Positions 7,430 to 35,604 of a DNA stretch of 64,000 nucleotides are shown one piece after another. Numbering within the stretch: position 1 is the first letter of the stretch; each line of letters opens with the position of its first letter. The position numbers were made by a program, and so were the translations under genes. The notes under the pieces are model-generated. The model ran no database searches, was not told where the DNA came from, and worked only from the letters and a program-made list of their open reading frames with translations. This DNA comes from Agrococcus jejuensis (GTDB lineage: Bacteria > Actinomycetota > Actinomycetes > Actinomycetales > Microbacteriaceae): assembly GCF_007679035.1 (NCBI RefSeq), contig NZ_VEFR01000001.1:496001-560000 (forward strand). The letters run 5' to 3'.

Positions 7430-7888
7430 TCAGCGCTCGGCGGGCACGACGACGACGCTCGCGCCGTCGACGGCGGTGACGACGACGCGCTCGCCGACGT
7501 CGAGGTCGCGCGGGCGCGTGACGGGGGAGAGGCGTGCCGTCCAGGTCTCGCCGTTCACGAGCGTGACCTCGCCCACGAGGCGCACGAACTGCTTCGTGAC
7601 CTCGCCGCCGAGGCCCGCGATGGCGTCGACGTTCGTGCGGGCGCCCTGCCCGGATCGGTGCAGGCGCTCGAGCAGCGATGGGCGCACCAGGAAGAGCAGC
7701 AGCGCAGCGGCGACGGCGGCGATGATCACCTGGGCCCAGATGGGCAGCCCGGTGAGGCTCGCGACGAGGCCGACGAGCGACCCGGCGCCGAGCATGAGGA
7801 AGGTGAGCTCGAGCGTGATGAGCTCGATCACGAGGCAGATCAGGGCGATCGCGAGCCAGCCGACCCACGCCCACATCCAGATGTCCAT
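7430..7888 (-). CDS. NfeD-family membrane protein
   Basis: Short NfeD1b-like protein of 152 residues: three hydrophobic segments in the first ~75 residues followed by a small beta-rich domain (about 90-150, GEVTLVNGETWTARL) resembling the OB-fold that pairs with SPFH proteins. ATG at 7888 has GAGGAGG just upstream. It is 52 nt upstream of the SPFH gene on the same strand; the two probably make one complex in membrane quality control (family knowledge). It lacks the ClpP-like protease domain of long NfeD. Confidence 0.85.
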   Translation of the reverse strand: MDIWMWAWVGWLAIALICLVIELITLELTFLMLGAGSLVGLVASLTGLPIWAQVIIAAVAAALLLFLVRPSLLERLHRSGQGARTNVDAIAGLGGEVTKQFVRLVGEVTLVNGETWTARLSPVTRPRDLDVGERVVVTAVDGASVVVVPAER

Positions 7889-19776: not shown

Positions 19777-19885
19777 GGGCGCCGCCCGCCGCGTCCCTCG
19801 CCGGGATGCACCGGTCGGAGGTCGGTCCTAGGCTGATCGAGGCGTCGCGGCACCCGTGACGCGTCGACTCGACCGACGGAGCACC

Positions 19886-22249
<2,364 letters not shown>

Positions 22250-22284
22250 ATGGCATTCAGGATTCTCACAGGTTCGGGGGAGCG

Positions 22285-22491
22285 ATGACGAGGCGCCGAG
22301 GGATCTCGCGGGCGTTCCTGCCGCTCGCGGCGCTGTTCGGCATCCTCACGTTCGTGCTCCTGCCCCTCGGGCAGGCGCTGTGGATCGTGTGCATGCCCAT
22401 CGCGGCGACCTTCGTCGTGCTCGCGGTGCGCACCCGCGACGAGGGCGAGTCCGACGAGGACGTCGAGGATGCCATCGACGAGTCGCGCTGA
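22285..22491 (+). CDS. Small membrane protein, unknown
   Basis: 68 residues: a basic N-terminus, two adjoining hydrophobic stretches (about 9-25 and 28-46) and an acidic tail (EGESDEDVED). GGGGGAG is just upstream of ATG. It lies 35 nt after the UvrA-like gene and its stop overlaps the next ATG, so all three may be one operon. No family recognised. Confidence 0.7.
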   Translation: MTRRRGISRAFLPLAALFGILTFVLLPLGQALWIVCMPIAATFVVLAVRTRDEGESDEDVEDAIDESR

Positions 22492-22841
22492 TGGCCGGCT
22501 TCGTGCAGGCCAGCGCGGCGAGGCGACTCGAGCGTCAGATCCACCGACGCTCCGGCGCACTCATGCCGTCGCTCGAGCTGCCGATGCCGCCCTGGGGTCC
22601 GGAGCTGGCCGACGACCTGGTCGACGTCGCCTCGGACGTCGTGGTGCTGCAGGCGACGCTGGCCGGATCGCGCGCCTGGCAGCACGACGACGACGGCGCG
22701 CGCCTGCGACGCGATGCGCTCACGACCATCCAGTCGATCCGCGAGCGTTGCCTCGCGCTCGACCTGACGATCACCGAGCACGCGGTACACGAGGTCGAGT
22801 CGCTCGTGCGCGCCTGGGAGGCACTGACCCTCCGGCCCTGA
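22491..22841 (+). CDS. Hypothetical protein, 116 aa
   Basis: Soluble, mostly helical-looking protein with no family I recognise. ATG overlaps the stop of the small membrane gene (TGATG). The last ~60 residues contain regular charged heptad-like spacing (RLRRDALTTIQSIRERCLAL). It is the last gene before the dif-like site, whose first base is 22 nt beyond the stop. Confidence 0.65.
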   Translation: MAGFVQASAARRLERQIHRRSGALMPSLELPMPPWGPELADDLVDVASDVVVLQATLAGSRAWQHDDDGARLRRDALTTIQSIRERCLALDLTITEHAVHEVESLVRAWEALTLRP

Positions 22842-22863
22842 ACTCTCTCCCGCACCGTGACGT

Positions 22864-22891
22864 TACGCCGATAATGCACATTATGTCGGAC
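22864..22891 (+). other. dif-like XerC/XerD recombination site
   Basis: A 28-bp site with 11-6-11 architecture: left arm 22864-22874 ending ATAA, 6-bp spacer 22875-22880, right arm 22881-22891 beginning TTATGT. The core ATAATGCACATTAT is a palindrome, unusually AT-rich for this DNA, and the right half matches the conserved XerD arm of bacterial dif sites. It is intergenic and occurs once in the window. If genuine, chromosome dimers are resolved here and the terminus is within this window. Confidence 0.78.
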
Positions 22892-23020
22892 TGAAGTAGG
22901 TGGCACCCCTCTCTCGCTCGTTCGGCAACGGCAGAGGCGTGGGTCGTGCGGGCCGGTCGACGCGACCGATGGGATGCCGATCGGCCGACCATGCGCGGAC
23001 AGCACGCGCGTCGCTCGGCC

Positions 23021-23026
23021 TACGCT
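23021..23026 (+). promoter_or_regulatory. -10 TACGCT, leaderless (zinc-ribbon gene)
   Basis: Hexamer 6 nt before ATG 23033. Confidence 0.6.
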
Positions 23027-23032
23027 GATCGG

Positions 23033-23341
23033 ATGAGTCCGTTTCTTCCTGGCTCGCGCGGAACGCAGCCTTGCCCGAACTGCGGCGCACAGGTTGCTCA
23101 GTCCGACCGGTACCCCTCATACCTGTGCCAGGAATGCGAGGCTCGCGCAGTCGATGCGAACGGCGCACGCGTGGCTGGATCGAACGCGTCGTTCGGCGGC
23201 GGGTTCGTGCTGCACTGGCCGGACGGCGAGCACGAACCGCTCCCCTGCATCTCGGCACGGGTGTGGGTCGACGGACGCGAGTGGGACTACTCCGAGGCAC
23301 GATTCGGCGGAGTGCTGATCACGCCAGCGCGAGAGCGCTGA
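23033..23341 (+). CDS. Small zinc-ribbon-like protein
   Basis: 102 residues; the N-terminal CPNC (14-17) and CQEC (32-35) pairs probably bind one zinc ion, followed by a beta-rich domain (FGGGFVLHWPDG, ISARVWVDGREWDYSEARFGG). TACGCT stands 6 nt before ATG with no Shine-Dalgarno, supporting this start and a leaderless message. Function unknown. First gene on the other side of the dif-like site. Confidence 0.72.
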   Translation: MSPFLPGSRGTQPCPNCGAQVAQSDRYPSYLCQECEARAVDANGARVAGSNASFGGGFVLHWPDGEHEPLPCISARVWVDGREWDYSEARFGGVLITPARER

Positions 23342-23728
23342 CCTGCGTCACGTCTGTGGAGCTCCCCGCTCCGGGCAATCGACTGCATCTCGGTCGCTCG
23401 CCGCTCACGGCGAGGGCTGCCCGTCTTCGGCGGCGATCGGTGGCCCGCGCCTCCCTGCCGTAGTCATCGGAGCATCTCGCCGTTCCAGCAGCGCGACGCC
23501 GTTCACGGAGGCGCACCGCCGGGACGAAGCCGACAGCGCGCCCTTCCCAGGTGCCGCTCCTTCGCGCACATCCCCAGCCTCGTGCTCATCGACACGCAGC
23601 TCGTCGTGAACGCACCCGTGCAGTTCCTGCGGACCGCCACCCGCACGCACATCGCGCAGGCGGGCGACAGTCGACACGAGCTCACGACCTACGTTGGCAT
23701 CCCCGAGATCCAGTCGAGGACGGCATGA
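23342..23728 (+). pseudogene. Open coding remnant without a start
   Basis: The frame stays open for 128 codons after the stop of the zinc-ribbon gene and ends at TGA 23726-23728. The first ~70 codons look non-coding, but the last ~55 have G or C at nearly every third position and read like a real C-terminus (LVLIDTQLVVNAPVQFLR, then HELTTYVGIPEIQSRTA). No convincing start exists, so a decayed gene is likely. The repeat copy at 23678 is inside its end. Confidence 0.4.
23678..23711 (+). repeat. Boundary repeat copy A (~34 bp)
   Basis: Starts GAGCTCACGACCTACGTTGG and continues CATCCCCGAGATCC. It matches the copy at 26908 in 28 of 34 positions; weaker copies are at 24682 and 25566. Confidence 0.6.
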
Positions 23729-23956
23729 AGGACTCGCGACGTGTTCGTACGCTTCCGACTCTCGAGCACGTGTGCGTCCGAATCGTTCCCTGACCGACGC
23801 CTTCTCGATGCGGAAGGCAGGCGTGAGCCGCGACCCGACCACGCTGATGTTGCAGAACATGCACCACGCGTGACCACTGGCTGACCGCCACCTTCGTCCT
23901 GGATGTTGCGGAATCTGCATCACAGGTGCAGGTTCCGCGACGCAGGAGATGGCTGC
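23729..23956. other. Intergenic stretch with an imperfect direct repeat
   Basis: No gene is convincing here. Two ~28-bp imperfect direct repeats begin near 23843 (GATGTTGCAGAACATGCACC) and 23901 (GATGTTGCGGAATCTGCATC), about 58 bp apart. The stretch is less GC-rich than the flanks. Confidence 0.45.
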
Positions 23957-24478
23957 TCAGACGGGGCGCACCCAGACGTGCTCGCCGTTCGCCGCGGCCG
24001 TGCGAACGTGCACGTCGAGAAGGGTGGCCTTCGTCGCGATGCCCCGTTCGGCGGCAGCGGCGGCGACCTGCTCGCTGAGGTCCTGCCAGTCGCGCGTACC
24101 CTGCATGATCTGCCCGAACTCAGGCGCCTGACGGCTGCTCAGTCGCACACCGGTCGGATGCGCGACGAGATCGACGATCAGCTGGCCCGCGGAGACCGCG
24201 ATGCTCCAAGCGTTGGACCCCGGCACGCTGCTGACCCTCTTCTTCGATGCCGACGCCACGCCCTGGACGAGTGCGTTCGCGGACGCGAGATCCGTATCGA
24301 GATCGAGCGAGGTCGCCATCGCCTCGAGCGCTGTCGTGATCGTTCGGGAGGACGCGCGGCGCCCTAGCTCGCCGCCCTTCGCCTGAGCGAGACGCCGGAG
24401 ACGTCGTCGAACGAGCGGGTATCCGACGAGCAGCGCAGCGATCAGAACACCGATCAAGAGCGCGAGAACGGGATCCAT
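23957..24478 (-). CDS. Membrane-anchored protein, unknown
   Basis: 173 residues with one N-terminal TM helix (about 3-23), a basic RRRLRRLAQ stop-transfer segment, and a soluble domain that I do not recognise. The region TLLDVHVRTAAANGEHVW at the C-terminus looks like an amphipathic strand pair. ATG 24478 is preceded by GGAGGA at a rather long distance (about 14 nt). Bounded on both sides by copies of the 34-bp boundary repeat, suggesting an acquired single-gene unit. Confidence 0.6.
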   Translation of the reverse strand: MDPVLALLIGVLIAALLVGYPLVRRRLRRLAQAKGGELGRRASSRTITTALEAMATSLDLDTDLASANALVQGVASASKKRVSSVPGSNAWSIAVSAGQLIVDLVAHPTGVRLSSRQAPEFGQIMQGTRDWQDLSEQVAAAAAERGIATKATLLDVHVRTAAANGEHVWVRPV

Positions 24479-24761
24479 GGCGGTACGAGGTCTCCTCCAC
24501 GAGTGGGTTCTCGCGAAGAGTAGCGCGCCGCACCTGGAGATCTCCGCTCGACGAGTTCGTGAAGCGAGCTGGGACCAGCTGAGACCGTGAACCAAGGGAA
24601 CGGACCACCCGCCGCCAGAGCCTCGATGGAGCGACGGCGAGCGCCAGCCCATGCGCACCCTTCCGCCCCGACGAGTTCGTGCGTTCGCGACCGAGGTCGA
24701 CGTCCCCGGGATCGACCATCGTCGCTCGACCGATGCTCTCCCCCATGGGGGTCGCGTCAGG
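24479..24761. other. Intergenic region with no gene seen
   Basis: Lower GC than the rest of the window. It holds boundary repeat copy B, and the phrase CGACGAGTTCGTG occurs twice (near 24548 and 24669). I see no start codon with signals on either strand. Confidence 0.5.
24682..24717 (+). repeat. Boundary repeat copy B (degenerate)
   Basis: Contains TTCGCGACCGAGGTCGACGT followed by CCCCGGGATC, a weaker relative of copies A and D. It separates the genes at 23957 and 24762. Confidence 0.45.
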
Positions 24762-25547
24762 TCAGGCCAGGAACGAAGAGGTGACGTCCACCCAGGCGTC
24801 GCGTGCGTCGAGATGCGCGTCGTGCGATGCGTCCACGAGATCGGTCCGACGGGCGTTCGCGTTGTGTGCGACGAAGGCGCGCTTCTGCCCCTCGGTGAAC
24901 ATGCCGCCGTCGGCGTAGACGACCAATGTCGGCGCCGTGACCGAGCCCCACTCGTCCCAGCGTGGAACCGCGACGTGACCGATCACGTCGATCATGACGT
25001 CAGCGTCGAAGCGCGGCCGCAAGCCATCTGGAGCCTGCTCGAGGTCGGCAGCCCACGCGCGTGCGAGCGCGCCGCCGCCGAGCGCCTCGGCTGCCTGTGC
25101 ACGCGTCGCGAACGGGACCTCCCAAGCAGCGAGCCATGCGCCGAGCGCCGCATGCTCCTCGGGCGATCCGCTCCCCTCATCGACCTCGAGCAGCACGAGC
25201 CGACGCACGAGATCCGGATGCGCCGCGGCGACGAGCATCGCGGTGTGCGCCCCCATCGATTGACCGATGAGGTCGACTGGCTCGGAGGCCTCAGCACGGA
25301 TGACCGCGACGACGTCGTCGACGAACGCCGCCCGCGATCGATCGGCAGGTCTGCGAGTGCTGCGACCGTGCCCGCGTTGATCGAGCAGCACGACCTTCCG
25401 CCCGCGGAGCGCCAGCGCGGTCGGCTCGAACTCCGTCCCGCTTCCAGCGAGGCCATGCAGCACGACGACCGCGGGCTCGGCGCCCGAGAACACCTGCACC
25501 GACAGCTCGACGTCGCCCCGTGCGATCGTGCGACGTTCGCCACCCAT
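24762..25547 (-). CDS. Alpha/beta-fold hydrolase
   Basis: 261-residue hydrolase with VVLHGLAG (oxyanion hole), DQRGHGRS, nucleophile elbow GQSMGAH and the terminal His in ASHDAHLD; the acid is probably the Asp in VVYADGG. Substrate unknown (ester, lactone or epoxide are all possible). ATG 25547 is supported by TACGGT 7 nt upstream and lack of Shine-Dalgarno; longer frames upstream run through a repeat and lack signals. Isolated between repeat copies B and C. Confidence 0.82.
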   Translation of the reverse strand: MGGERRTIARGDVELSVQVFSGAEPAVVVLHGLAGSGTEFEPTALALRGRKVVLLDQRGHGRSTRRPADRSRAAFVDDVVAVIRAEASEPVDLIGQSMGAHTAMLVAAAHPDLVRRLVLLEVDEGSGSPEEHAALGAWLAAWEVPFATRAQAAEALGGGALARAWAADLEQAPDGLRPRFDADVMIDVIGHVAVPRWDEWGSVTAPTLVVYADGGMFTEGQKRAFVAHNANARRTDLVDASHDAHLDARDAWVDVTSSFLA

Positions 25548-25554
25548 GCTCTCG

Positions 25555-25560
25555 ACCGTA
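25555..25560 (-). promoter_or_regulatory. -10 TACGGT, leaderless (alpha/beta hydrolase)
   Basis: Hexamer 7 nt before ATG 25547; it decides the start. Confidence 0.6.
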
Positions 25561-25565
25561 CGCGC

Positions 25566-25595
25566 GTCCACGTCCCGGGTCGACATCCCCGATCT
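25566..25595 (+). repeat. Boundary repeat copy C
   Basis: Carries CGGGTCGACATCCCCGATCT, sharing the GGTCGACATCCCCG core with copy D. It lies just upstream of the hydrolase promoter. Confidence 0.5.
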
Positions 25596-25744
25596 CCAGT
25601 GGAGAGCGGGATGCAGCACGCGCGTCGTGTCGAGACGCCTCCCTGCACCGGCGCACCATCTGTCGGTCACCGTGTGCTCGGACCGGAGACCTCTCGACCT
25701 CCTGAGCGACGGGAGGCGCAGCTGCCCGAGATGGCGATCCAGCC

Positions 25745-25915
25745 GTCAGCGGTCAGCGCGCTCCGGCGGCCAGACGACCGAGAAGCGCTCGAGCACGATC
25801 TCGTCGTCCTCAGACCACGTGCCTCCGCGCGCCGCTGCCACGCGCTCCCAGTAGCGGCGGTGTCGGCATCTCTACGACCTCGTCGAGCTGGACGATGCAC
25901 TCATGCGCAAGGCCT
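25745..25915 (-). pseudogene. Frameshifted C-terminal gene fragment
   Basis: On the minus strand two adjoining frames each look like coding sequence: an upstream part LAHECIVQLDEVVEMP and, after a frameshift, RYWERVAAARGGTWSEDDE continuing to VWPPERADR and a stop at 25745. Codons use G/C in the third position. No intact start is present. Probably a broken gene; the family is not recognised. Confidence 0.4.
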
Positions 25916-25949
25916 GGAGCGGTCCGCACTCGACGGCTTGGCTGTGACG

Positions 25950-26921
25950 ATGGCTCCTACTCCCCTGGACGCTGTTCATCGCAATGTCCCGACGACTCGG
26001 CTGACCGTGCTGGGCGTGCCGAACAGCGCGAGTGCGTATTGCATGGGAGTCGAGAGAGCCCCGGCAGCGTTGCGAGAGGCGGGTCTGCTCGAGGCGCTGA
26101 GCGCGACCGGCCTCGAGGTGGTCGATGCGGGCGACCTCACGATGCGGCCATGGCGTCCGGATCCGCGCCACCCGTTCGCGCAGAACGTCGACGAGGAGGC
26201 AGAGGCAACCGCCGAATTGGCGGCGGCGGCCGGGACGCTCCTGGGCAAGGGCCGTCGGCTGCTCGTCCTCGGCGGCAGTTGCGTCGTTGCGATCGGTGTG
26301 TGCGCAGGAATGAGGATCGCTGGCGCGCGTCCGCAGCTCGTCTATCTTGACCGCCACCTCGACCTCAACACGCCTGCCTCGACGACCGAGGGGTCGCTGA
26401 GCTGGATGGGCATGGCTCACGCGCTGGGCCTCGAGGGCGCGGTGCCCGAGCTCATGGATGCGGCAGGCCGCTCGCCGATCCTCGCTCCGGCCGACCTCGT
26501 CTATCTCGGGGCTGACCTGACCGATGGGACGACGCAGTGGGAACGTGACCAGATCGAAGCGCTCGGGATCGAGATCGTCGGTCAAGCGGCGATGTGCGCG
26601 GACCCGACCCGCGCCGCCACACGCGCGAGAGGGCACCTGGCCGACGAGCCGTACGTCGTGCATCTCGACGTCGACGTCCTCGACTTCCTCGACGCCCCGA
26701 TCGCTGAGAACGTGAACGGCCGCAACAGCGGGCCGACGATCTCAGCGCTCGGGCGATCTCTCGCCGTGCTGATCGGAGATCCGCAGTGCTGGGGCCTCTC
26801 GATCGGCCAGCTCGACCCGAACCACGCCGCCTCGGACCCCACCGCGCTCCCCCGGCTGATCGGGACTCTCGGCGCCGCATTCACGCCCGCCCCTTCGGCC
26901 GGTGAGGAGCTCGCGACCTAG
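25950..26921 (+). CDS. Arginase/agmatinase-family protein with altered metal site
   Basis: Ureohydrolase-fold protein of 323 residues. Two metal motifs are kept: D134-R-H136-L-D138 (family DAHxD) and HLD240-V-D242-VLD (family SxDxD). The first motif, usually GGDH with a His ligand for one manganese, is GGS110-C111 here. Other members carry GGDC, so Cys may still bind, but loss of Asp is unusual. Substrate could be a guanidino compound or the enzyme may be divergent. ATG 25950 chosen; GTG 25944 is possible. Ends directly at repeat copy D. Confidence 0.8.
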   Translation: MAPTPLDAVHRNVPTTRLTVLGVPNSASAYCMGVERAPAALREAGLLEALSATGLEVVDAGDLTMRPWRPDPRHPFAQNVDEEAEATAELAAAAGTLLGKGRRLLVLGGSCVVAIGVCAGMRIAGARPQLVYLDRHLDLNTPASTTEGSLSWMGMAHALGLEGAVPELMDAAGRSPILAPADLVYLGADLTDGTTQWERDQIEALGIEIVGQAAMCADPTRAATRARGHLADEPYVVHLDVDVLDFLDAPIAENVNGRNSGPTISALGRSLAVLIGDPQCWGLSIGQLDPNHAASDPTALPRLIGTLGAAFTPAPSAGEELAT

Positions 26922-26941
26922 GTCGACATCCCCGCTATCCG
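26908..26941 (+). repeat. Boundary repeat copy D (~34 bp)
   Basis: Starts GAGCTCGCGACCTAGGTCGA and continues CATCCCCGCTATCC. It overlaps the stop of the arginase-like gene and is exactly 3230 bp from copy A. Confidence 0.6.
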
Positions 26942-26982
26942 TGGCGGGGGGGCTCCGCACGTCCTCCGGCATCGTCGCGCGC

Positions 26983-27726
26983 TCAGGAGGTGACGATGGC
27001 GATCCCCTGCGCGAGGATCGTGCGTCCCTCGCTCTCGATGGCGGCGAAGCGCCAGAGCTGCTCCGGGTACTCGAAGTCCGCTCCGTAGCCGGACTCGGCG
27101 CCGTTGTTATACGGCTGCACGCGCACCTCGAAGCTGCTCGCACCGTCTGCGCTCTCACCGGCGAGGTCGATGGCGACGATCTGGTTGCCCTGCTCGTAGC
27201 CGATGCCGGACGCCAGTGCCGTCTGCACGTAGGGGATGAGCAGGTTGACGTTGTAGCTCTCCATCATCGAGATGTCCTGAGCTGCGATCCGCGTCTCCCA
27301 GTCGGCACCGTAGAGTGCCTCGGCATAGGCGGGGGTCTGCGCTTGCGCGATCGCCCGCGCGAAGTCGGCCAGGTCGGGGCGGTCGGAGTCGAAGTCCGTG
27401 ATGTCGGGATCGACGTCGAGCGTGATGGCGAGCTCGACGGTCTCGGTCGTGGTCCCTGCCATCCCCCACCGGTCGAATGCGGAGACGACGGCCGTCGCGA
27501 GGTCATCGCCTGAGAGACCAGCGGGGATGGCGATGTCGTCGGCCGAGGCGACGGGGATGCTCGAGACGTCGATGCTGCCTTCAGGGCGCTCCGTGGCGTC
27601 GGGGACGACGGGCGACGATGTCGCCGACGGAGCAGCGGACGGCTCCGCCGCCGCATCGGCGGAGCATCCGCTCACGACGAGGGTGGCCGCGAGCACGGTC
27701 GCCAGCCGACCAGGAAGGGATCGCAT
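26983..27726 (-). CDS. Lipoprotein, unknown function
   Basis: 247 residues with a signal peptide ending VVSGC (lipidated Cys near 21), a Ser/Ala/Pro linker to about residue 55, and a ~190-residue domain of unrecognised fold that resembles in composition secreted actinobacterial lipoproteins. GGAGGATGAAGC precedes ATG. Divergent from a second lipoprotein gene with 73 nt between. Attached to the outer face of the membrane by Lnt-pathway processing (inference). Confidence 0.78.
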   Translation of the reverse strand: MRSLPGRLATVLAATLVVSGCSADAAAEPSAAPSATSSPVVPDATERPEGSIDVSSIPVASADDIAIPAGLSGDDLATAVVSAFDRWGMAGTTTETVELAITLDVDPDITDFDSDRPDLADFARAIAQAQTPAYAEALYGADWETRIAAQDISMMESYNVNLLIPYVQTALASGIGYEQGNQIVAIDLAGESADGASSFEVRVQPYNNGAESGYGADFEYPEQLWRFAAIESEGRTILAQGIAIVTS

Positions 27727-27786
27727 GCTTCATCCTCCGATGGCGGGCTGAGCAGCGGCTGTCGGCTGCGTCTCGGCAGCGGCTCG

Positions 27787-27792
27787 TACGCT
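27787..27792 (+). promoter_or_regulatory. -10 TACGCT, leaderless (lipoprotein 27800)
   Basis: Hexamer 7 nt before ATG. Confidence 0.6.
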
Positions 27793-27799
27793 GCCGGCC

Positions 27800-28354
27800 A
27801 TGCGTTCTCCCCTGGTCGTGCTGTGCCTCGCGAGCGCGCTCGCCCTCGCGGGATGCTCCACCGCGGTGCCCGCCCCGGAGCCGTCCACGCCGGTCGACGC
27901 CCGCGTCGAGGTCCCCTCGGAGCCGAGCCATCCTCCGTACGTGCCGTCGTCGTTCTTCCCACCGGGTACGACGGGACCGGGCATCTGGGACGCGCGGCAG
28001 GTGCCCATCGTCGTCGCGGCCAGCATCGACGGCATCGGCTACCCGCTGCCGCCCGGCGCCGCGTACGACGGTTGGGAAGACGTCGATCCGAACGTCGGAT
28101 TCGAGATCGGCACGATCGAGTCCGGGGTCGCGTTCCAGTGGCACTGCGCCTGGCTGGTCGAATGGGATGCTGCGAGCGACGCCGGCGACGACGAGCTGGC
28201 CACGGACATCGAGGCCCTGCTCGAGCAGTTCTGGACCCTCCCCCACATCACGCTGCTGACCGATGGCGAAGGCACGTTCCGCGAGCAGCAGACCGCGGCC
28301 GCGCCTCCTGGAGCAGACCTCAATCGTTGGTTCCTGCACTCGCTCTGCGACTGA
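27800..28354 (+). CDS. Lipoprotein, unknown function
   Basis: 184 residues; signal peptide with LALAGC lipobox (Cys19), Pro-rich linker, then a domain with several Trp and two Cys (FQWHCAWLVEW and the C-terminal SLCD) that could form a disulfide. TACGCT is 7 nt before ATG (leaderless layout). The 3' end overlaps by 35 nt, antisense, a possible small gene on the other strand. Confidence 0.75.
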   Translation: MRSPLVVLCLASALALAGCSTAVPAPEPSTPVDARVEVPSEPSHPPYVPSSFFPPGTTGPGIWDARQVPIVVAASIDGIGYPLPPGAAYDGWEDVDPNVGFEIGTIESGVAFQWHCAWLVEWDAASDAGDDELATDIEALLEQFWTLPHITLLTDGEGTFREQQTAAAPPGADLNRWFLHSLCD

Positions 28355-28559
28355 CTTCGCGCGGCATGTGGCAATGCTCTCCGCGACGTGATTCCACTCG
28401 CATCCGGAGCCGCGAGTCGGTCGCCACGAAGACGCTTCGCTCGACGATGGTGTCGCGACCGCCCCTGAGCATGGAGCACCCGGTCCGACTGCCGACGAGA
28501 GCCGGGGAGCCCAACGCCGAGAAGCCAGCGATCCAGCCGACGATGCTCGATGCCAGCAC
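28320..28559 (-). CDS. Possible small membrane protein
   Basis: 79-codon frame starting GTG with GAGAG 7 nt upstream. Hydrophobic residues about 1-22 (LASSIVGWIAGFSALG) are followed by a polar basic tail (RDTIVERSVFVATDSRLRMR). It lies 27 nt downstream of another small membrane gene on the same strand. The 35-nt overlap with a lipoprotein gene end lowers confidence. Confidence 0.4.
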   Translation of the reverse strand: MLASSIVGWIAGFSALGSPALVGSRTGCSMLRGGRDTIVERSVFVATDSRLRMRVESRRGEHCHMPREVSRRASAGTND

Positions 28560-28586
28560 GAGCAGCTCTCCGAGCCGCCGGGCCGG

Positions 28587-28823
28587 TCAGATGAAGACCC
28601 GGAGCGCCAGCGACAAGCCCGATGCGACGACCAAGGCGACAAGCGCCCGGCGGTTGAGTCTCTGGGCCGCACGCAGACGCTGCTCGTCGACCTCCACTCG
28701 CCGCCCGTCGGCATCGCGAGGATCCTTCGCTCGATGCGTGCGGACCAGCGTCACGATCCAGAAGGTCAACGTCGGCAAGACCAGGAGCGCGAAGATGAGA
28801 CTGTCGTTCGGACCATAGAGCAC
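28587..28823 (-). CDS. Small two-TM membrane protein, unknown
   Basis: About 78 residues with TM segments near 8-25 (SLIFALLVLPTLTFWIV) and 60-78 (RRALVALVVASGLSLALR) around a charged loop. GTG 28823 is the best start, although no clear ribosome-binding site is seen; a longer frame extends upstream. No family recognised. Confidence 0.5.
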   Translation of the reverse strand: MLYGPNDSLIFALLVLPTLTFWIVTLVRTHRAKDPRDADGRRVEVDEQRLRAAQRLNRRALVALVVASGLSLALRVFI

Positions 28824-29015
28824 ATGACGAGACTGCCCGGTCGCGCCTGAAGGACATCCCAAGCGCTGATCTGCGGCTCCGGATCGCCGGCTCGGCGGTT
28901 CCAGGTGATGGTGCGCTCTGCTCGCTCGCTTCCCCACGGCGAAGCAACCGCGGGTGCTGGCGCGTCCGCTGATCGACGACCGCCGCCCCTCCTCGGCGCC
29001 CGCACCCCGCCTCTC

Positions 29016-29021
29016 TATGCT
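29016..29021 (+). promoter_or_regulatory. -10 TATGCT, leaderless (methyltransferase)
   Basis: Hexamer 6 nt before ATG 29028. Confidence 0.6.
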
Positions 29022-29027
29022 GTCGCC

Positions 29028-29696
29028 ATGTCAGATGCGTGGTTGTCCGACACCCGGCGTTCGTACGACGAGGACGCTCCCGGATACGCCCAGAAGGTCG
29101 ACGGGCTGTTGGCGGAGCAGCCCTACCTGCGTGGATGCCTGGCACTCTTCGCAGAGACCGTGCAGCGGAATGGCGGGGGTCCGGTCGCCGACGTCGGCTG
29201 CGGTCCTGGATACGTCACCCGTCATCTCCACGACCTGGGTGTGGATGCCTTCGGCATCGATCTCTCTCCCGAGATGATCGCGATCGCCAAGCGCGACCAC
29301 CCCGACCTCCGCTTCGAGGTAGGGACCATGACGGACCTTGCGCTGGAGACCGGCTCGGTCGCCGGCGTGCTGGCGTTCTGGTCGGTGGTCCACGTCCCCG
29401 ACCACGCCGTGCCTGGCGTCTTCGCCGAGTTCCGGCGAGTCTTGCGTCCGAGGGGGGCCCTGCTGGTCGGGTTCCACGTCGGGGACGATGTCGAGCACAG
29501 CTCCGAGGCATACACGGGCCGCCCTGTCTCCATCGACACGTATCGACGCCACCCGGCCGTCGTCGAGGGCTGGCTCCGCGACGCTGGGTTCGCGATCGGC
29601 GCCACCCTGGTCATGAGACCCGGAGGAGACCGACCCGGCGCAGTCGTCTTCGCGACGAGCGGTCCGGCTTCGGCGCAGACCGACGCAGGAGCCTGA
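29028..29696 (+). CDS. Class I SAM-dependent methyltransferase
   Basis: 222-residue Rossmann methyltransferase: motif I VADVGCGPGYVT (about 50-61), motif II FGIDLSPEM, motif IV-like VLAFWSVVHV and post-I acidic residues fit the Methyltransf_11/25 group. Small-molecule substrate unknown. TATGCT is 6 nt before ATG with no Shine-Dalgarno (leaderless). Stands alone in the accessory region. Confidence 0.85.
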   Translation: MSDAWLSDTRRSYDEDAPGYAQKVDGLLAEQPYLRGCLALFAETVQRNGGGPVADVGCGPGYVTRHLHDLGVDAFGIDLSPEMIAIAKRDHPDLRFEVGTMTDLALETGSVAGVLAFWSVVHVPDHAVPGVFAEFRRVLRPRGALLVGFHVGDDVEHSSEAYTGRPVSIDTYRRHPAVVEGWLRDAGFAIGATLVMRPGGDRPGAVVFATSGPASAQTDAGA

Positions 29697-29855
29697 CTCC
29701 CCCGCCACGTGCGCATCTCCGAGATCGAGCCGCCTCCGGGCTTGGCTCTCGGCGAAGCCTGCGATCGAGCTCGGCCGAGACGTCCCGCCATCACCCGGTG
29801 GCGGCGGATCATGGTCGGCAGCATCCTGGGAACCACGACGAGAGGACGGTGCGCG

Positions 29856-30434
29856 ATGCACGATGTGGCATGGGAAGACGGCACGTGGACGACCCCTCCG
29901 GCGAGCGTGGAGCACGACGCCGACGGGCTGCGGGTCACCGCACGGGAGGGCAGCGACGCCTGGCGCCTCACCTCGTACGGCTTCGTCCACGACACGGAGC
30001 ATGCGTTGCTCGCACCGTTCCCGACGGACACGGCGATCGAGGTCACCTTCCGGCTGGCGTTCGAGGAGCAGTTCGATCAGGCCGGGCTCTTCGTGCGACT
30101 CGACGACGAGCACTGGGTGAAGGCCGGGGTCGAGCGCAGCGATGGCACCGAGAGCCTCGGCGCCGTCGTCACCCGTGGAGCGTCGGACTGGTCATTGGCG
30201 CCCGTCTCGCATTGGAGCGGACGACTCGTCACCATCCGAGCCAGCCGCTCGGGGAACGCGCTGACGGTCCGCGCTCGCGCCGACGATGCGCCGTGGCAGC
30301 TGGTGCGGGTGGCTCCGCTCGATGCCGAAGCCGTGCTGACCGCCGGCCCCTACTGCTGCGCGCCGACACGGGCGGGATTGACGGTCCACTTCACTGCATG
30401 GAAGACGGGCCCCGCGGACACGTCGCTGCACTGA
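29856..30434 (+). CDS. DUF1349 concanavalin-like protein
   Basis: 192 residues matching the DUF1349 family (beta-sandwich, concanavalin-like): WEDGTWTTPPASV at the start, VTFRLAFEEQFDQAGLFVRLDDEHWVK-type core in the middle, and TAGPYCCAPTRAGLTVHF near the end. Some members are carbohydrate-binding or called regulators of enolase. GAGAGG precedes ATG 29856. An in-frame start at 29709 exists but runs through non-coding-looking sequence. Confidence 0.8.
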   Translation: MHDVAWEDGTWTTPPASVEHDADGLRVTAREGSDAWRLTSYGFVHDTEHALLAPFPTDTAIEVTFRLAFEEQFDQAGLFVRLDDEHWVKAGVERSDGTESLGAVVTRGASDWSLAPVSHWSGRLVTIRASRSGNALTVRARADDAPWQLVRVAPLDAEAVLTAGPYCCAPTRAGLTVHFTAWKTGPADTSLH

Positions 30435-30568
30435 GCCCGATCGGCCTGGCCGGAGGGATGGTCAGCGCAGCACGCCGAGCCGCGCAAGGGGTCTGCGACC
30501 CTCCCGCCTTCGAGGCGCCGTCTCAGTAGCGTCGACAGCGCCAGCAGATGGCGAACGAGGAGATGGTC

Positions 30569-31957
30569 ATGACCGAGCAGCCGCGCATCGCCACGATCGA
30601 CGACGTCACGGGTCCGCGCACGATCGCGATCCTGGGCGCGGGAGGCGATCTCACGGAGCGGCTGCTGCTGCCGGGCATCGGGCAGGTGGCGGAGCTCGCC
30701 CGCATCGACGACCTGACGCTCGTCGGCGCGGCTCGCACGCCGAAGACCGACGAGGAGTGGCAGGAGGTCGTGCGCCGCAGCCTCGAGGACGCCGACGTCG
30801 CCGCGCACACCGTCGACGCGCTCGTCTCTCGCGCGCGGTTCGTCGCGACGGATGCGTCCGATCCCGAGCAGCTGGCCGCGCTCCTGGATGCGTGTCCCTC
30901 CTCCCCCGTGCTGTACGTGGCGCTGCCGCCGGCGATGGGGCATGCCGTCGCCGCCTCGCTCGCGGCGATCCAGCTGCCCGACGACCTCGTGGTCGCGATC
31001 GAGAAGCCGTTCGGCGAGGATCTCGACGACGCGATCGCGCTCGACGACGCTCTGGCAGCGGTGCTGCCGCCCGAGCGACTGTGGCGCATCGACCACTTCC
31101 TCGGCAACGCCGCCGTGGTGGGCATGCTGGGGCTCCGCTTCGGCAACGGACTGCTCGAGGCGGCATGGTCGACGCAGCACGTCGAGAAGGTCGAGATCGT
31201 CTACGACGAGGTGCTGGGCATCGAGGGGCGCGGCGCGTTCTACGACGGCACGGGGGCGCTCCGCGACATGCTGCAGAGCCACCTGCTCATGGTGCTCGCG
31301 TTCGTGGCCATGGAACGGCCCGAGGATGTGACCGTCGCCGAGGTGCATGCCCGGATGGCGGAGGTGCTCGGCGCCGTGCGGCCGTGGCGCGACGATCCGT
31401 CGACCGCGCGCCGGGCCCGCTACACCGAGGGACGCCTCGACGGGCGACTGCTGCCGGCGTACGTCGACGAGGCGGACGTCGACGCCGACGCAGGGACCGA
31501 GACCCTCGCGCAGCTGCTGCTCCAGGTCGACGTGCCGCGGTGGGACGGCGTGCCGTTCGTGCTGCGCTCCGGCAAGGCGATCGGAGCCCCTCGGGCCGAG
31601 ATCGCCCTGCACCTGCGGCCGACCGCACCTCCCACGGGCATCGCGGCACGGGACGCGGGCTCGGTCCTGCGCATCTCGCTGGTCGACGGCGGGATCGCGC
31701 TCGACCTCCACGTCGACGACGCGATGCACCAGGCGCTCGTCCCGCTCGCGCTCGCCGGCGACGCACCCGAGGGGCCGCTCAGCGCGTACGGCCAGGTCGT
31801 GCTCGGGCTGCTCGCGGGCGACCGGCTGCTCTCGGTCTCCCGCGACGTCGCCGAGCAGTGCTGGCGCATCGTCACCCCCGTCCTCGCCGCCTGGGCCGAC
31901 GGCGCCGCACCGCTCGAGGAGTACGAGGCCGGCAGTGCGGGGCCCGAGGATTGGTGA
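30569..31957 (+). CDS. Divergent glucose-6-phosphate dehydrogenase
   Basis: G6PD-family NADP-dependent dehydrogenase, 462 residues (usual 480-510). The nucleotide motif is GAGGDLTE (23-30), EKPFGED is kept, and GAFYDGTGALRDMLQSHLL keeps the second catalytic His. The active-site segment RIDHYLGK reads RIDHFLGN: His176 is kept, but the substrate-binding Lys is Asn180. Activity on another sugar phosphate, or weak activity, is possible. GAGGAG precedes ATG 30569; an upstream ATG at 30548 is less likely. No zwf partners (opcA, pgl, gnd) are nearby. Confidence 0.85.
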   Translation: MTEQPRIATIDDVTGPRTIAILGAGGDLTERLLLPGIGQVAELARIDDLTLVGAARTPKTDEEWQEVVRRSLEDADVAAHTVDALVSRARFVATDASDPEQLAALLDACPSSPVLYVALPPAMGHAVAASLAAIQLPDDLVVAIEKPFGEDLDDAIALDDALAAVLPPERLWRIDHFLGNAAVVGMLGLRFGNGLLEAAWSTQHVEKVEIVYDEVLGIEGRGAFYDGTGALRDMLQSHLLMVLAFVAMERPEDVTVAEVHARMAEVLGAVRPWRDDPSTARRARYTEGRLDGRLLPAYVDEADVDADAGTETLAQLLLQVDVPRWDGVPFVLRSGKAIGAPRAEIALHLRPTAPPTGIAARDAGSVLRISLVDGGIALDLHVDDAMHQALVPLALAGDAPEGPLSAYGQVVLGLLAGDRLLSVSRDVAEQCWRIVTPVLAAWADGAAPLEEYEAGSAGPEDW

Positions 31958-31993
31958 GCACCCGGCGCCCGAGGAGGCCGGCCGACGCCAGCG

Positions 31994-32557
31994 TCACGCG
32001 TCGAAGAGCTCGCGAGCGCGCCGCCACAGGTCGGCCTGCGCATCGACGAGCGTACGGCCGGAGCGAGGTTCGAGCCACGTCTCGACGGCGAGCTCGAAGC
32101 AGGCGGCCGCGACGTCGGCCAGCAGCGCCGCATCGCGGGCGTCCGTGCCACGATCCACCAGCGCCGCCGCGATGGCGCCTGCCAGGTGTCGCCTGCTGAG
32201 GAGGTTGCGTTCGACGAGGCCCTGCTCCGTGCGGATGATCGCACGTCGTCGCGCGAAGTCCTCGTGTAGCGGCTCGAGCCCGCGACAGGCGATCTCGAGA
32301 CCGAGCCGAACGGCGTCGGCCGACGACGTCGCGGCATCGACACCTCGCAGCGACTCCTCGACCACGAGCGGCAGCTCACGGTCGCGCAGGAACATCACGT
32401 CCCGCTTGTCGGCGAAGTGACGGAAGAACGTCCGGGTCGTCAGCCCGGCGCCGGCCGCGATCTGCGCCACGGTCGTCTCCGCGAATCCCTGCGTCTCGAA
32501 GAGCGACAGCGCTGAGGCCTCGAGCCGCAGCGCGGCATCGGGTGACCAACGTCCCAT
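31994..32557 (-). CDS. TetR-family transcriptional regulator
   Basis: 187 residues with an N-terminal TetR helix-turn-helix (about 20-50: FAETTVAQIAAGAGLTTRTFFRHF) and a ligand-binding C-terminal region. Divergent from an oxidoreductase gene; the 80-bp intergenic region carries two palindromes with TGATGACA half-sites, one overlapping the likely -10 of the oxidoreductase and one adjoining its own start. It therefore probably represses both, releasing on a substrate of the oxidoreductase. Confidence 0.9.
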   Translation of the reverse strand: MGRWSPDAALRLEASALSLFETQGFAETTVAQIAAGAGLTTRTFFRHFADKRDVMFLRDRELPLVVEESLRGVDAATSSADAVRLGLEIACRGLEPLHEDFARRRAIIRTEQGLVERNLLSRRHLAGAIAAALVDRGTDARDAALLADVAAACFELAVETWLEPRSGRTLVDAQADLWRRARELFDA

Positions 32558-32564
32558 GCGTCCA

Positions 32565-32585
32565 TGATGACACGAGGTGACATCA
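32565..32585. promoter_or_regulatory. TetR operator 1 (imperfect)
   Basis: Half-sites TGATGACA (32565-32572) and TGACATCA (32578-32585) around 5 bp, immediately upstream of the regulator ATG. Confidence 0.65.
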
Positions 32586-32593
32586 CGAGTACA

Positions 32594-32616
32594 GTGATGA
32601 CATTCCGTGTCATCAC
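32594..32616. promoter_or_regulatory. TetR operator 2 (perfect palindrome)
   Basis: GTGATGACA (32594-32602), 5-bp spacer, TGTCATCAC (32608-32616). It overlaps the TACAGT -10 hexamer (32590-32595) of the oxidoreductase gene, fitting repression by occlusion. Confidence 0.8.
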
Positions 32617-32637
32617 GGTGCGAGTCGAGGAGAGCCC

Positions 32638-33813
32638 GTGGTCGAGAACGTCGCAGCCTGGATCGATGCCCCGTATGCAGACCTGCAGGTCCGGAGGGCC
32701 CCGATGCCCGTCGCCGGTCCCGGGCAGCTGCTGGTGCGAGTGCGCGCGGTGGCGGTGAACCCCCTGGATGCGGTGATCCAGTCGAACGGGACCCTGATGT
32801 ACGGCTGGCTGCGATACCCCGTCGTCCTCGGCGAGGACGTCGCCGGCGAGGTCGTCGCGATCGGCGCCGACGTGCGCTCCTTCGCCGTCGGCGATCGCGT
32901 CATCGCGTACGCGATGGGCTTGGAGAAGGGCCGCGATGCACGTGGTGGCGCCGGGTTCCAGACGTTCGTCGCGGTCGAGGCTGCGATGGCAGCGCCCATC
33001 CCCGCCGAGGTCCCGTACGAGCGCGCGGTCGTGCTGCCGCTGGCAGTGAGCACGGCGGCCGCTGGACTGTTCGAGGCGAAGCAGCTCGGGCTCGACTCGT
33101 CGAGCCTGGGGCGCTCGCCCGCGCGCGACGAGACGGTCGTGATCTGGGGCGGCGCGACGAGCGTGGGCGGCAACGCCATCCAGCTCGCCCGGGCGGCGGG
33201 GTACCAGGTCATCACCACGGCCTCGCCGCGCAACCACGCGCGCATGCACGAGCTCGGCGCACGTGCGGCGTTCGACTACCGCAGCCCCGACGTCGTGGAG
33301 CGCGTCGCGGCGGCCGCGAGCGGCACGACGGTCGTCGGCGTGCTCGCGATCGCCACGGGTTCAGCAGCGCCCAGCATCGCGATCGCGCGAGCGACGCAGG
33401 CCAGGCGGGTGGCGATGGCGAGCCCGCCGGTGTCGTTCTACGATCAGCCCCGACGTCCCGGCGTGTCGGCGGCACGGATCAGGCTCATCGCACGCCTCGC
33501 CTCGCGCTCCGCCGCGCTGCAGCTCCGCAGCCGCGCCGGCGGCGTGCGGGCTTCGTACGTCTGGGGCAGTGCGATCGCCGACTCGGAGGTCGGTGTCGCG
33601 GTGTGGGAGCGGCATCTGCCTGCAGCGATCGCATCCGGGATGCACGTGCTCTACCCGGAGGCGCGCGTCGTCGGGTCCGGCCTGTCCGAGGTGCAGGGGG
33701 CGATCGACGCCGTCCGAGCAGGCGTGTCGGCTCAGAAGCTCGTCGTCAGGCTCGACGAGCGGACGACGGCCGACGACATGGGCACCGTCCGCGAGGCCCC
33801 TCCCGCTCCGTGA
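32638..33813 (+). CDS. Zinc-type alcohol dehydrogenase-like/quinone oxidoreductase
   Basis: 391-residue MDR-superfamily NADP-dependent oxidoreductase: GroES-like N-terminal part with VNPLDAVIQ and GEDVAGEVVAIG, then a Rossmann domain with WGGATSVGGNAIQLARAAGY. No structural or catalytic zinc Cys cluster is seen, so it fits the quinone-reductase/enoyl-reductase subgroup; the ~40 residues after VLPLAVS form an insertion. GTG with CGAGGAGAG upstream. Controlled by the divergent TetR regulator, likely as a detoxification gene. Confidence 0.87.
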   Translation: MVENVAAWIDAPYADLQVRRAPMPVAGPGQLLVRVRAVAVNPLDAVIQSNGTLMYGWLRYPVVLGEDVAGEVVAIGADVRSFAVGDRVIAYAMGLEKGRDARGGAGFQTFVAVEAAMAAPIPAEVPYERAVVLPLAVSTAAAGLFEAKQLGLDSSSLGRSPARDETVVIWGGATSVGGNAIQLARAAGYQVITTASPRNHARMHELGARAAFDYRSPDVVERVAAAASGTTVVGVLAIATGSAAPSIAIARATQARRVAMASPPVSFYDQPRRPGVSAARIRLIARLASRSAALQLRSRAGGVRASYVWGSAIADSEVGVAVWERHLPAAIASGMHVLYPEARVVGSGLSEVQGAIDAVRAGVSAQKLVVRLDERTTADDMGTVREAPPAP

Positions 33814-34267
33814 AGCTGCGCCACGCGGCGATCTCCGAGCATGGCTACCGGGTCGTCGGGGAGACCGGACGTCGCCGGCGCAGGCTTCCGTCATCGGGCG
33901 GTTCGGGCGTGGAGATGATCTGCACGGCCGCCGGGCTCGACAGGTCGATCCGCACGACCTTGCCGAACGATCGGCGACGAACGAGCTGCATCGTCGAGAC
34001 GGCAGGCGCCGAGGATGGGCGCAGCGTGGACTCCGTGGGCAAGGGCACCCTCCCGGCAGCTCGACGAGGGCGATGGTCCGCCTCGGTTCGATGGGTGGTT
34101 CGGAGCTCGAGCCGTTCCGGCTCGGAGTCGAGACCGTGGTGCGCCGGGCAGACCGGAGCCGGTCCGAGCGGATGCGGGATCCGGACGACGGGCGGAGGGC
34201 GAGTATCACAGCCGGACCGTCGGCGCGACGCTCGGCGCCGCCGATCGGAAGACCCTACGCTCGCAGC
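33814..34267. other. 454-bp region without a convincing gene
   Basis: Frames on both strands are open but Arg/Ser/Pro-rich with irregular codon third positions. A minus-strand stretch near 33900-33990 (VVRIDLSSPAAVQIIS) looks weakly coding and may be a gene remnant. The TACGCT -10 of the next gene is at 34256. Confidence 0.45.
34256..34261 (+). promoter_or_regulatory. -10 TACGCT, leaderless (gene 34268)
   Basis: Hexamer 6 nt before ATG. Confidence 0.6.
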
Positions 34268-34525
34268 ATGCTCCTCGCAGACCAGCGCATCATCACCTTC
34301 AGCGGCGACAGCCTCGACGCCGCCGCCACCGACCTCCGCACGCAGATCGACGACCTGCCCCTGACCGCGCGCATCACGTCGCTCACCTCCGGGTGCGACG
34401 AGGGCGTGTTCTCCGGGATGGCGATCGTCGACATGATCCCCGAGGTCGACGCCAGCGCGCCCGTGAGCGACGAGGGCACCGTCACCCAGCTGTCGCAGGC
34501 CGACGGCCTCCCCGACGAGATCTGA
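34268..34525 (+). CDS. Hypothetical protein, 85 aa
   Basis: Small acidic protein, no family recognised. TACGCT lies 6 nt before ATG with no Shine-Dalgarno, which fixes the start as leaderless. Contains SLTSGCDEGVFSGMAIVDM; no membrane segment. Confidence 0.65.
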   Translation: MLLADQRIITFSGDSLDAAATDLRTQIDDLPLTARITSLTSGCDEGVFSGMAIVDMIPEVDASAPVSDEGTVTQLSQADGLPDEI

Positions 34526-34653
34526 TCCGCCGCGCGCGGAGGCGCGCCAGCGTCGGCAGCAGGCGCCTCGAGCACCGCTGCGGGCGTGGGGCAATCCATC
34601 CTGGGTGTCCGTGTCGAAGAAGGCAAGGAATGTTCACGTTCCGAGAAGGGACG

Positions 34654-34659
34654 TACGTT
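34654..34659 (+). promoter_or_regulatory. -10 TACGTT, leaderless (gene 34666)
   Basis: Hexamer 6 nt before ATG; it decides the start. Confidence 0.55.
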
Positions 34660-34665
34660 CCAGCC

Positions 34666-34893
34666 ATGACTCGTCACACGATCCAGGTGTCGGTCACCGT
34701 CGACGTCGATGACCCTACGCTCGTCCGCGCGAACGAGCTCCGCCTCACCGATGCGGTGCCCACCGCACGAGAGGCGATGGGCTCCGCCATCGTCGATGCC
34801 ATCGCGGACCACGCAGCCAGCCCCCTCCACGAGCAGGGCATCGAGTTCGTCGTCGTCGCGCTCGCCGAGGACGAGCACGGCGTCGACCCCTAG
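34666..34893 (+). CDS. Hypothetical protein, 75 aa
   Basis: Small alpha/beta-looking protein beginning TRHTIQVSVTVDVDDP, with a helical middle (TAREAMGSAIVDAIADHA) and a C-terminal strand (IEFVVVALAEDE). TACGTT lies 6 nt before ATG, a leaderless layout; an in-frame ATG 36 nt upstream is less likely. Family unknown. Confidence 0.65.
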   Translation: MTRHTIQVSVTVDVDDPTLVRANELRLTDAVPTAREAMGSAIVDAIADHAASPLHEQGIEFVVVALAEDEHGVDP

Positions 34894-34944
34894 GGTCAGG
34901 CGGCGAGGGCCGCGGCCCCGTCGTCGACCGGCGGGTGCAGCCAC

Positions 34945-35604
34945 CTAGGCCCGGCGCGTGAAGAGCTGGTGCACGACACCCGACGGCGACGCCGTCGACT
35001 CGATCGCGAACCGCTGCTCGAGGCCCTCGAGCCCGTCCCAGAGCCGCACGCCGCGGCCGAGCACGACGGGCGAGACGACCAGGTGCATCTCGTCGACGAG
35101 GTCGGCCTCGAGGAACGCGCGCACCGTCGTCGGCCCGCCGCCGAGGCGCACGTCGAGGCCGCCCGCGAGGTCGGCGGCGAGCGCGAGCGCGTCGGCGGGC
35201 GCGAGATCGCGGAACGTGAAGGTCGTCTCGCCGAGCGTGAGATCGGGACGCTCGTGGTGCGTCAGCACGACGACGGGGCTGCGGAACGGCGGCTCCGCGC
35301 CCCACCAGCCCTCCCATGCGAGGTCCTCCCACGGCCCCTCCTGCGGGCCGAACTTGCCACGCCCCATGATCTCGGCGCCGATGCCGTGGTGCGTGCGAGC
35401 GGCGAAGGCGTCGTCGAGTCCCGTCGTGCCAGAGCCGACGGCCTCGTCCTCGTGACCGGAGCCCTCGACGAACGTGCGTGTGGGGAAGAACCACTCCATG
35501 AGACGCCCGCCCGCATGCCCGAACGGCGCCTCGACCGTGCGCCCCTCCCCCGTCGCGAACCCGTCGAGCGAGATCGCGAGATTGTGCACGCGCAGCTTCG
35601 TCAT
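34945..35604 (-). CDS. DHFR-like reductase (RibD C-terminal family)
   Basis: 219-residue protein of the dihydrofolate reductase/RibD C-terminal superfamily: NLAISLDGFATG at the N-terminus, GAEIMGRGKFG, RLGGGPTTVRAFLEADLVDEMHLVVSPVVLG at 150-185. NADPH-dependent reduction of an unknown pterin-like or other substrate is expected. TAGCGT lies 6 nt upstream of ATG 35604, and the same ATG overlaps the stop of the upstream membrane gene, so it may be read from its own leaderless and the operon message. Confidence 0.87.
   Translation of the reverse strand: MTKLRVHNLAISLDGFATGEGRTVEAPFGHAGGRLMEWFFPTRTFVEGSGHEDEAVGSGTTGLDDAFAARTHHGIGAEIMGRGKFGPQEGPWEDLAWEGWWGAEPPFRSPVVVLTHHERPDLTLGETTFTFRDLAPADALALAADLAGGLDVRLGGGPTTVRAFLEADLVDEMHLVVSPVVLGRGVRLWDGLEGLEQRFAIESTASPSGVVHQLFTRRA

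Follow-up and report, generated by a model that had tools for sequence, protein, structure and literature searches.

The DNA analyzed in this study is a 64-kb window of the Agrococcus jejuensis genome, corresponding to positions 496001-560000 of contig C11 (1.45 Mb) in a draft assembly of 3,354,810 bases and 64 contigs. A 28-bp dif site is located on the plus strand at 22864-22891 of the window (C11:518864-518891), and was identified via comparison within the genome and the genus and via a weight matrix. The site reads TACGCCGATAA TGCACA TTATGTCGGAC with an 11-6-11 geometry, and is composed of a putative XerC-binding arm (22864-22874), a central hexamer (22875-22880), and a putative XerD-binding arm (22881-22891), all on the plus strand. 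The arms were named by analogy with known dif sites, which we take to hold here. The left arm ends with ATAA and the right arm starts with TTATGT; both the coordinates and the letters are exactly those of the original prediction. The 14-bp core ATAATGCACATTAT had been described as palindromic. It is a near-palindrome, in which 12 of the 14 positions are paired and the central CA is mismatched.

The site is placed in an intergenic gap, since one open reading frame ends at 22841 and the next one starts at 22946. A mechanical open reading frame at 22469-22894 overlaps dif and is read by us as a spurious frame. The neighbor on the XerC side is a gene for an ABC-domain protein (Pfam ABC_tran; 19856-22249, plus strand), whose translation suggests to us a UvrA-like product. 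DNA matching this gene is also present in 9 of 17 Agromyces loci.

On the XerD side, dif is directly followed by a strain-variable block of 12 kb (22892-34944), defined by comparison with G007, the closest relative compared. Homology to G007 runs from the left flank through dif to 22896 and restarts at 34945, and the 12 kb of the window replaces 2.4 kb of G007. Accessory DNA had been proposed immediately to the right of dif, and the loss of homology five bases past the site, followed by the 12-kb gap, bears this out. The further proposal that this DNA is owed to dif or to the terminus is compatible with the data, and the mechanism is conjectural. Where the homology restarts, a RibD_C-domain gene was found by homology and Pfam (34945-35604, minus strand). 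Pfam matches were obtained for 7 of the 12 block proteins scanned (22946-34944), and comprise an alpha/beta hydrolase, a member of the arginase family, a methyltransferase, DUF1349, a glucose-6-phosphate dehydrogenase, TetR, and an alcohol dehydrogenase. Pfam identified none of these 12 proteins as an integrase, a transposase, or a phage protein; 5 of them had no match.

The GC content of the block is 0.702, compared with 0.726 and 0.728 on its two sides. Low GC content does not characterize the variable side in general. When the 20-kb flanks were compared in 10 genomes, the right flank was lower in GC in 6 (the window, G006, G007, G021, G002, and G009), by 0.001-0.002 in G007 and G021, and was higher in the other 4.

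Uniqueness and conservation of the dif site

Within the 64-kb window, one match to the site was found at up to 3 mismatches, compared with zero in 100 shuffles. Similarly, the 18-bp core at up to 3 mismatches matched once in the 3,354,810 bases of the genome, and the reversed-pattern control gave zero matches. When scored with a weight matrix derived from the 23 remaining genomes of the genus, the site reached 48.7 bits, and the next-best place on C11 reached 5.7 bits. The site is single in the genome, and C11 has no better dif match. Exactly one copy of dif, at up to 2 mismatches, is present in each of the 24 Agrococcus genomes, and 19 of the 28 positions are invariant among them. The 24-base core was found in 26 stretches of the genome contig collection, all titled as Agrococcus or Agromyces. 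Both genera are members of the Microbacteriaceae. The exact 28-mer had zero matches in the same collection. TTATNNNNNNTTATGT, a misread form of the site, had no matches.

The predicted dif of Frankia alni, as given in the available text of PMC3025954, is also 28 bp long with an 11-6-11 geometry, and 23 of its 28 bases are identical to those of the present site. Bases 2-24 (ACGCCGATAATGCACATTATGTC) are the same, and the two sites differ only at position 1 and at positions 25-28. The literature search for Agrococcus and dif together returned nothing.

The protein components required by such a site were also searched. Three genes of the Phage_integrase family were found in the genome, all of them on C11. 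One is identified as the XerD gene (TIGR02225, 335.5 bits; cut-off 329.6). A second is the XerC candidate, with TIGR02224 as its best family at 290.3 bits, below the curated cut-off of 335.15. The remaining gene encodes a more distant tyrosine recombinase, whose best family is again TIGR02224 at 107.7 bits. One FtsK_gamma domain is present in the genome (80.4 bits; cut-off 30.6). The identification of 22864-22891 as the chromosomal dif is supported by its uniqueness in the genome, its conservation in the genus, its match to a published dif, the XerC, XerD, and FtsK genes, and the reversal of octamer polarity described below. These data confirm a genuine, ordinary actinobacterial dif.

Octamer polarity, GC skew, and the replication terminus

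Every 8-mer that occurs 60 times or more on C11 was screened on a 10-kb grid for a reversal of strand preference. The strongest switch on the contig was that of CGGGGGAG at the grid point of 520 kb, and dif is located at 518.9 kb. On the left of dif, 91 of 91 copies on C11 point toward the site. On the right, 107 of 130 point toward it and 23 away, giving 198 of 221 toward dif over the whole contig. The best change point falls between 518275 and 522847, which is -0.6 to +4.0 kb from dif. The bootstrap range of 519595-524910 begins just above dif (518.88 kb), because change points are midpoints between neighboring octamers and the nearest octamer on the right is 4 kb off. This nearest right-hand copy (26847-26854, minus strand) points back to dif, and the nearest left-hand copy (22275-22282, plus strand) points to it. 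The other copies in the window are at 7522, 17552, 20344, 20989, and 22215 on the left, all on the plus strand, and at 29697, 30901, 35545, 45519, 50151, and 60166 on the right, all on the minus strand. Every copy in the window is directed toward dif, including the three right-hand copies inside the variable block and the four further right.

The octamer was picked on the same contig that displays the switch, and the relatives were therefore used as an independent check. In G006, 55 of 55 copies of CGGGGGAG and 97 of 98 copies of GGGGGAG within 200 kb converge on dif. Summed over nine genomes including the window, 188 copies of GGGGGAG point toward dif and 2 point away. G003, which was kept out of this sum for its odd layout, has 42 toward and 0 away. 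The reversed octamer GAGGGGGC, used as a control on C11, had 29 of 57 copies toward dif.

Other motifs were counted on C11 in the same way, namely GGGCAGGG, GAGAAGGG, GGGAAGGG, and GGGTAGGG, which we take to be E. coli-type KOPS variants and one B. subtilis-type motif. No polarity around dif was seen for GGGCAGGG (toward/away 19/15 on the left and 28/31 on the right) or for GAGAAGGG (5/9 and 9/14). The copies of GGGAAGGG (7/3 and 11/3) and GGGTAGGG (1/1 and 3/1) were too few to judge.

The architecture-imparting AIMS octamers of Corynebacterium, G(A/T/C)GGGGGA and (T/C)GGGGGAG, were used to find dif, and CGGGGGAG is a member of this published set, as far as the available text of PMC2830990 and PMC3350403 describes it. 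The same text places the dif of Corynebacterium aurimucosum and C. resistens at the octamer convergence, as is found here. For C. aurimucosum, the text of PMC2830990 gives 856 leading and 61 lagging copies for the octamer set, and states that GC skew also marked the dif region. On C11, in contrast, 198 of 221 CGGGGGAG copies point to dif, with 22 of the 23 exceptions located from the polarity flip at 1.27-1.29 Mb on, and the skew does not mark dif.

The original prediction held that the cumulative GC skew should switch near 22.9 kb of the window. No turn was found at dif (518.9 kb) on C11, and the minimum is at 1,061,639. By the prediction's own criterion this counts against it. We read the skew as uninformative rather than as a refutation, because it is weak and irregular throughout C11. 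A strong correlation between dif and the GC-skew shift point is reported in the available part of PMC3025954; the shift point is a correlate of dif rather than its definition.

The dnaA gene of this genome is on C61 and not on C11, so the distance between dif and the origin is unmeasurable in this draft. The relatives were analyzed instead, using the nine genomes in which a single contig covers nearly the whole genome and carries both dnaA and dif. G016 and G023 were left out, as the contig shared by the two loci falls well short of genome length. The dnaA-dif distance is 0.454-0.489 of the contig in eight of the nine, and 0.041 in the exception, G003. In G007, whose long blocks are mostly 90-95% identical to C11, the distance is 0.482, and collinearity with C11 is seen both in the region of dif and at the ends of the contig. 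Because dif is approximately opposite to dnaA in eight of nine relatives and G007 is collinear, placement of the terminus near dif is well supported by octamer polarity together with collinearity. The prediction that the replication terminus lies here is upheld to this extent, since the octamers converge on dif, and what is placed is the center of polarity as seen here and in the relatives, not the meeting point of the forks. In Pseudomonas aeruginosa, according to the available part of PMC6199493, replication does not terminate at dif.

The 23 wrong-way copies of CGGGGGAG on C11 are confined to the right of dif, one at 1,167,962 and the other 22 from 1,290,326 on. A second flip of polarity is found at C11:1273935-1290326, diverging in the manner of an origin, though dnaA is carried by C61. 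The joints of this flip (1278540-1279098 and 1284221-1284386) hold copies of a palindromic repeat about 160 bp long. The segment past the flip adjoins the start of C11 in G007, where 5.4 kb separates the end of C11 from its start. The search of C11:1260001-1300000 returned no rRNA at gathering scores and one tRNA. The flip is probably a false contig join at the repeat; less probably, the rearrangement is real and may even reflect a split replicon. The repeat itself is interspersed and nearly palindromic, with both strands matching, and dozens of copies occur genome-wide (for example C22:397412-397591 and C61:31914-32070). We read it as possibly REP- or MITE-like. A separate oddity was observed in G003, where a polarity block centered on dif (about 835-1070 kb, within C1:820-1100 kb) lies directly beside dnaA (1,077,306), and further polarity flips occur in the stretches fetched. 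We read this layout as a misassembly or a drastic rearrangement.

Proposed function and alternative readings

With a probability of about 0.97, this Agrococcus has its single chromosomal dif at 22864-22891, where chromosome dimers would be resolved via FtsK and XerC/XerD. An odd number of crossovers would join the sister chromosomes into a dimer. FtsK would load on polar sequences of the CGGGGGAG type and pump each arm toward dif, where it would activate XerC/XerD, and recombination between the two dif copies would restore monomers at cell division. Binding of XerC/XerD, strand exchange, activation by FtsK, and the reading of CGGGGGAG by FtsK are all assigned here from established Xer/dif knowledge.

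The site could instead belong to an integrated mobile element (IMEX) as its dif-like attachment site, in which case it would mark one junction of the element and not be the resident dif. Elements of this type are known to use dif-like sites, and in the available text of PMC9765430 they resemble the present locus, with variable DNA abutting dif and, here, no integrase found among the 12 scanned block proteins. The non-homologous DNA that starts five bases past the site and ends 12 kb on would fit such an insertion, as would the 10 IMG/VR stretches that carry the XerC arm plus core (0 for the reversed pattern) and the overlap of three of five weak plasmid matches with the dif core. However, the site is single in the genome (5.7 bits for the next best on C11 against 48.7), and no second dif or half-site flanking the block was found on C11 or in the window at 34700-35200, around the far end. 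The block differs in this from the elements described in the available text of PMC9765430, and its Pfam-named genes are ordinary metabolic and regulatory ones; no mobile-element protein was recognized among the 12 scanned, 5 of which have no Pfam match. One site is present in 24 of 24 genomes whatever adjoins it on the right. The site is also the point where polarity converges; past use by an element would therefore not change its standing as the resident dif. Insertion as the origin of the site is thus very improbable. Even less probable is that the palindrome arose by chance or serves as an operator for a transcription factor. The intergenic location and the AT-rich, nearly palindromic core would suit either one, but the site is unique, is kept in all 24 genomes despite changing right-hand neighbors, is identical in most bases to a published dif, and coincides with a polarity reversal.

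Mobile elements were further searched for dif-like sequences. Among the matches listed for the 20 kb around dif in 8 relatives, no tyrosine integrase (PF00589) was found, and phage records gave no dif-like sites. Plasmids gave five short matches with E values of 0.1-6. Two of them, in Gordonia (NZ_CP047236.1, 36224-36249) and Microbacterium (NZ_CP072877.1, 402970-402990), match the XerC arm plus core at 92-100% over 21-26 bases (E 0.5), and are possible plasmid dif sites judging from sequence. In IMG/VR, the 10 stretches with the XerC arm plus core include L203 and L204, which share the same 971 bases; the XerD arm plus core was found in 21 stretches, compared with 8 for the reversed pattern. 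Five of the 10 (L205-L207, L211, and L212) have a degenerate XerD arm, like Xer-exploiting phages. PHROG comparison identified head (capsid) and terminase genes in L207 and a head (capsid) gene in L211, and found no match for two L205 proteins. These five stretches may come from tailed phages with actinobacterial dif as their integration site. By our reasoning, a phage whose attP keeps the XerC arm intact but has a degenerate XerD arm would come to lie on the XerC side of the functional dif, opposite to the side that varies here, and such phages therefore fail to explain variability on the XerD side.

One-sided variability beside dif

The flanks of dif were compared in all 276 pairs of the 24 genomes, using up to 1.4 kb per side, with less sequence to the left of dif in L088 and to the right in L099. 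Similarity was found on the XerC side only in 103 pairs, on the XerD side only in 7, on both sides in 3, and on neither side in 163. When flanks of up to 20 kb were used in 10 genomes, the nearest homologous block was closer on the XerC side in 43 of 45 pairs. Both exceptions involve G002, with a right flank of just 7.8 kb, and the right flank of G009 is just 6.1 kb, biasing its pairs toward asymmetry. For the eight genomes with full flanks, the XerC side was closer in 28 of 28 pairs. Genome pairs are not independent because of their shared ancestry. Agromyces points in the same direction: among 136 pairs from 17 loci, with 16 pairs skipped for short flanks, the XerC side only was similar in 22, the XerD side only in 2, both in 6, and neither in 90.

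The same border is seen over longer distances. Between G006 and C11, at least 0.59 of the sequence is aligned in 18 of 19 10-kb bins to 190 kb on the left, with one bin at 0.03. On the right, the aligned fraction starts at 0.08-0.26 (0-40 kb), rises to 0.78-0.82 (40-60 kb), falls to 0.06-0.45 (60-100 kb), and lies between 0.24 and 0.93 farther out. For G003, whose layout is doubtful, the fraction is 0.50-1.00 to 130 kb on the left and 0.00-0.20 to 140 kb on the right.

These data show dif as a sharp one-sided border in Agrococcus, with the XerC side conserved and the XerD side variable. In many pairs, the left side may be anchored by a single conserved neighbor, namely the ABC-domain gene (19856-22249) or an equivalent of it. 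It is conceivable, as a conjecture, that the border is made by Xer, with circular DNA captured repeatedly at dif, which would act as a polar, integrase-free gate for gene capture. After each insertion, the old XerC flank would retain a functional dif, the distal copy would be lost, and the gate would keep DNA only if it obeyed the GGGGGAG polarity. This conjecture is given a low probability, because the relict distal site that it predicts was not found on C11 or around the far end of the block. The other reading is ordinary insertion and loss beside a conserved cluster, with selection preserving dif at the edge. In the titles and abstract openings of the literature searched, one-sided plasticity at dif is not named. 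It is the only surprising part of this locus and is worth following.

The identification of dif fixes the point of dimer resolution and the polarity of segregation in a draft genome for which GC skew is of no help. Under the same circumstances, the polarity of CGGGGGAG can place dif to within a few kb and flag suspect contig joins. If the one-sided turnover is confirmed in closed genomes, a role of Xer/dif in shaping polar gene acquisition at the terminus would be directly testable in a culturable genus.
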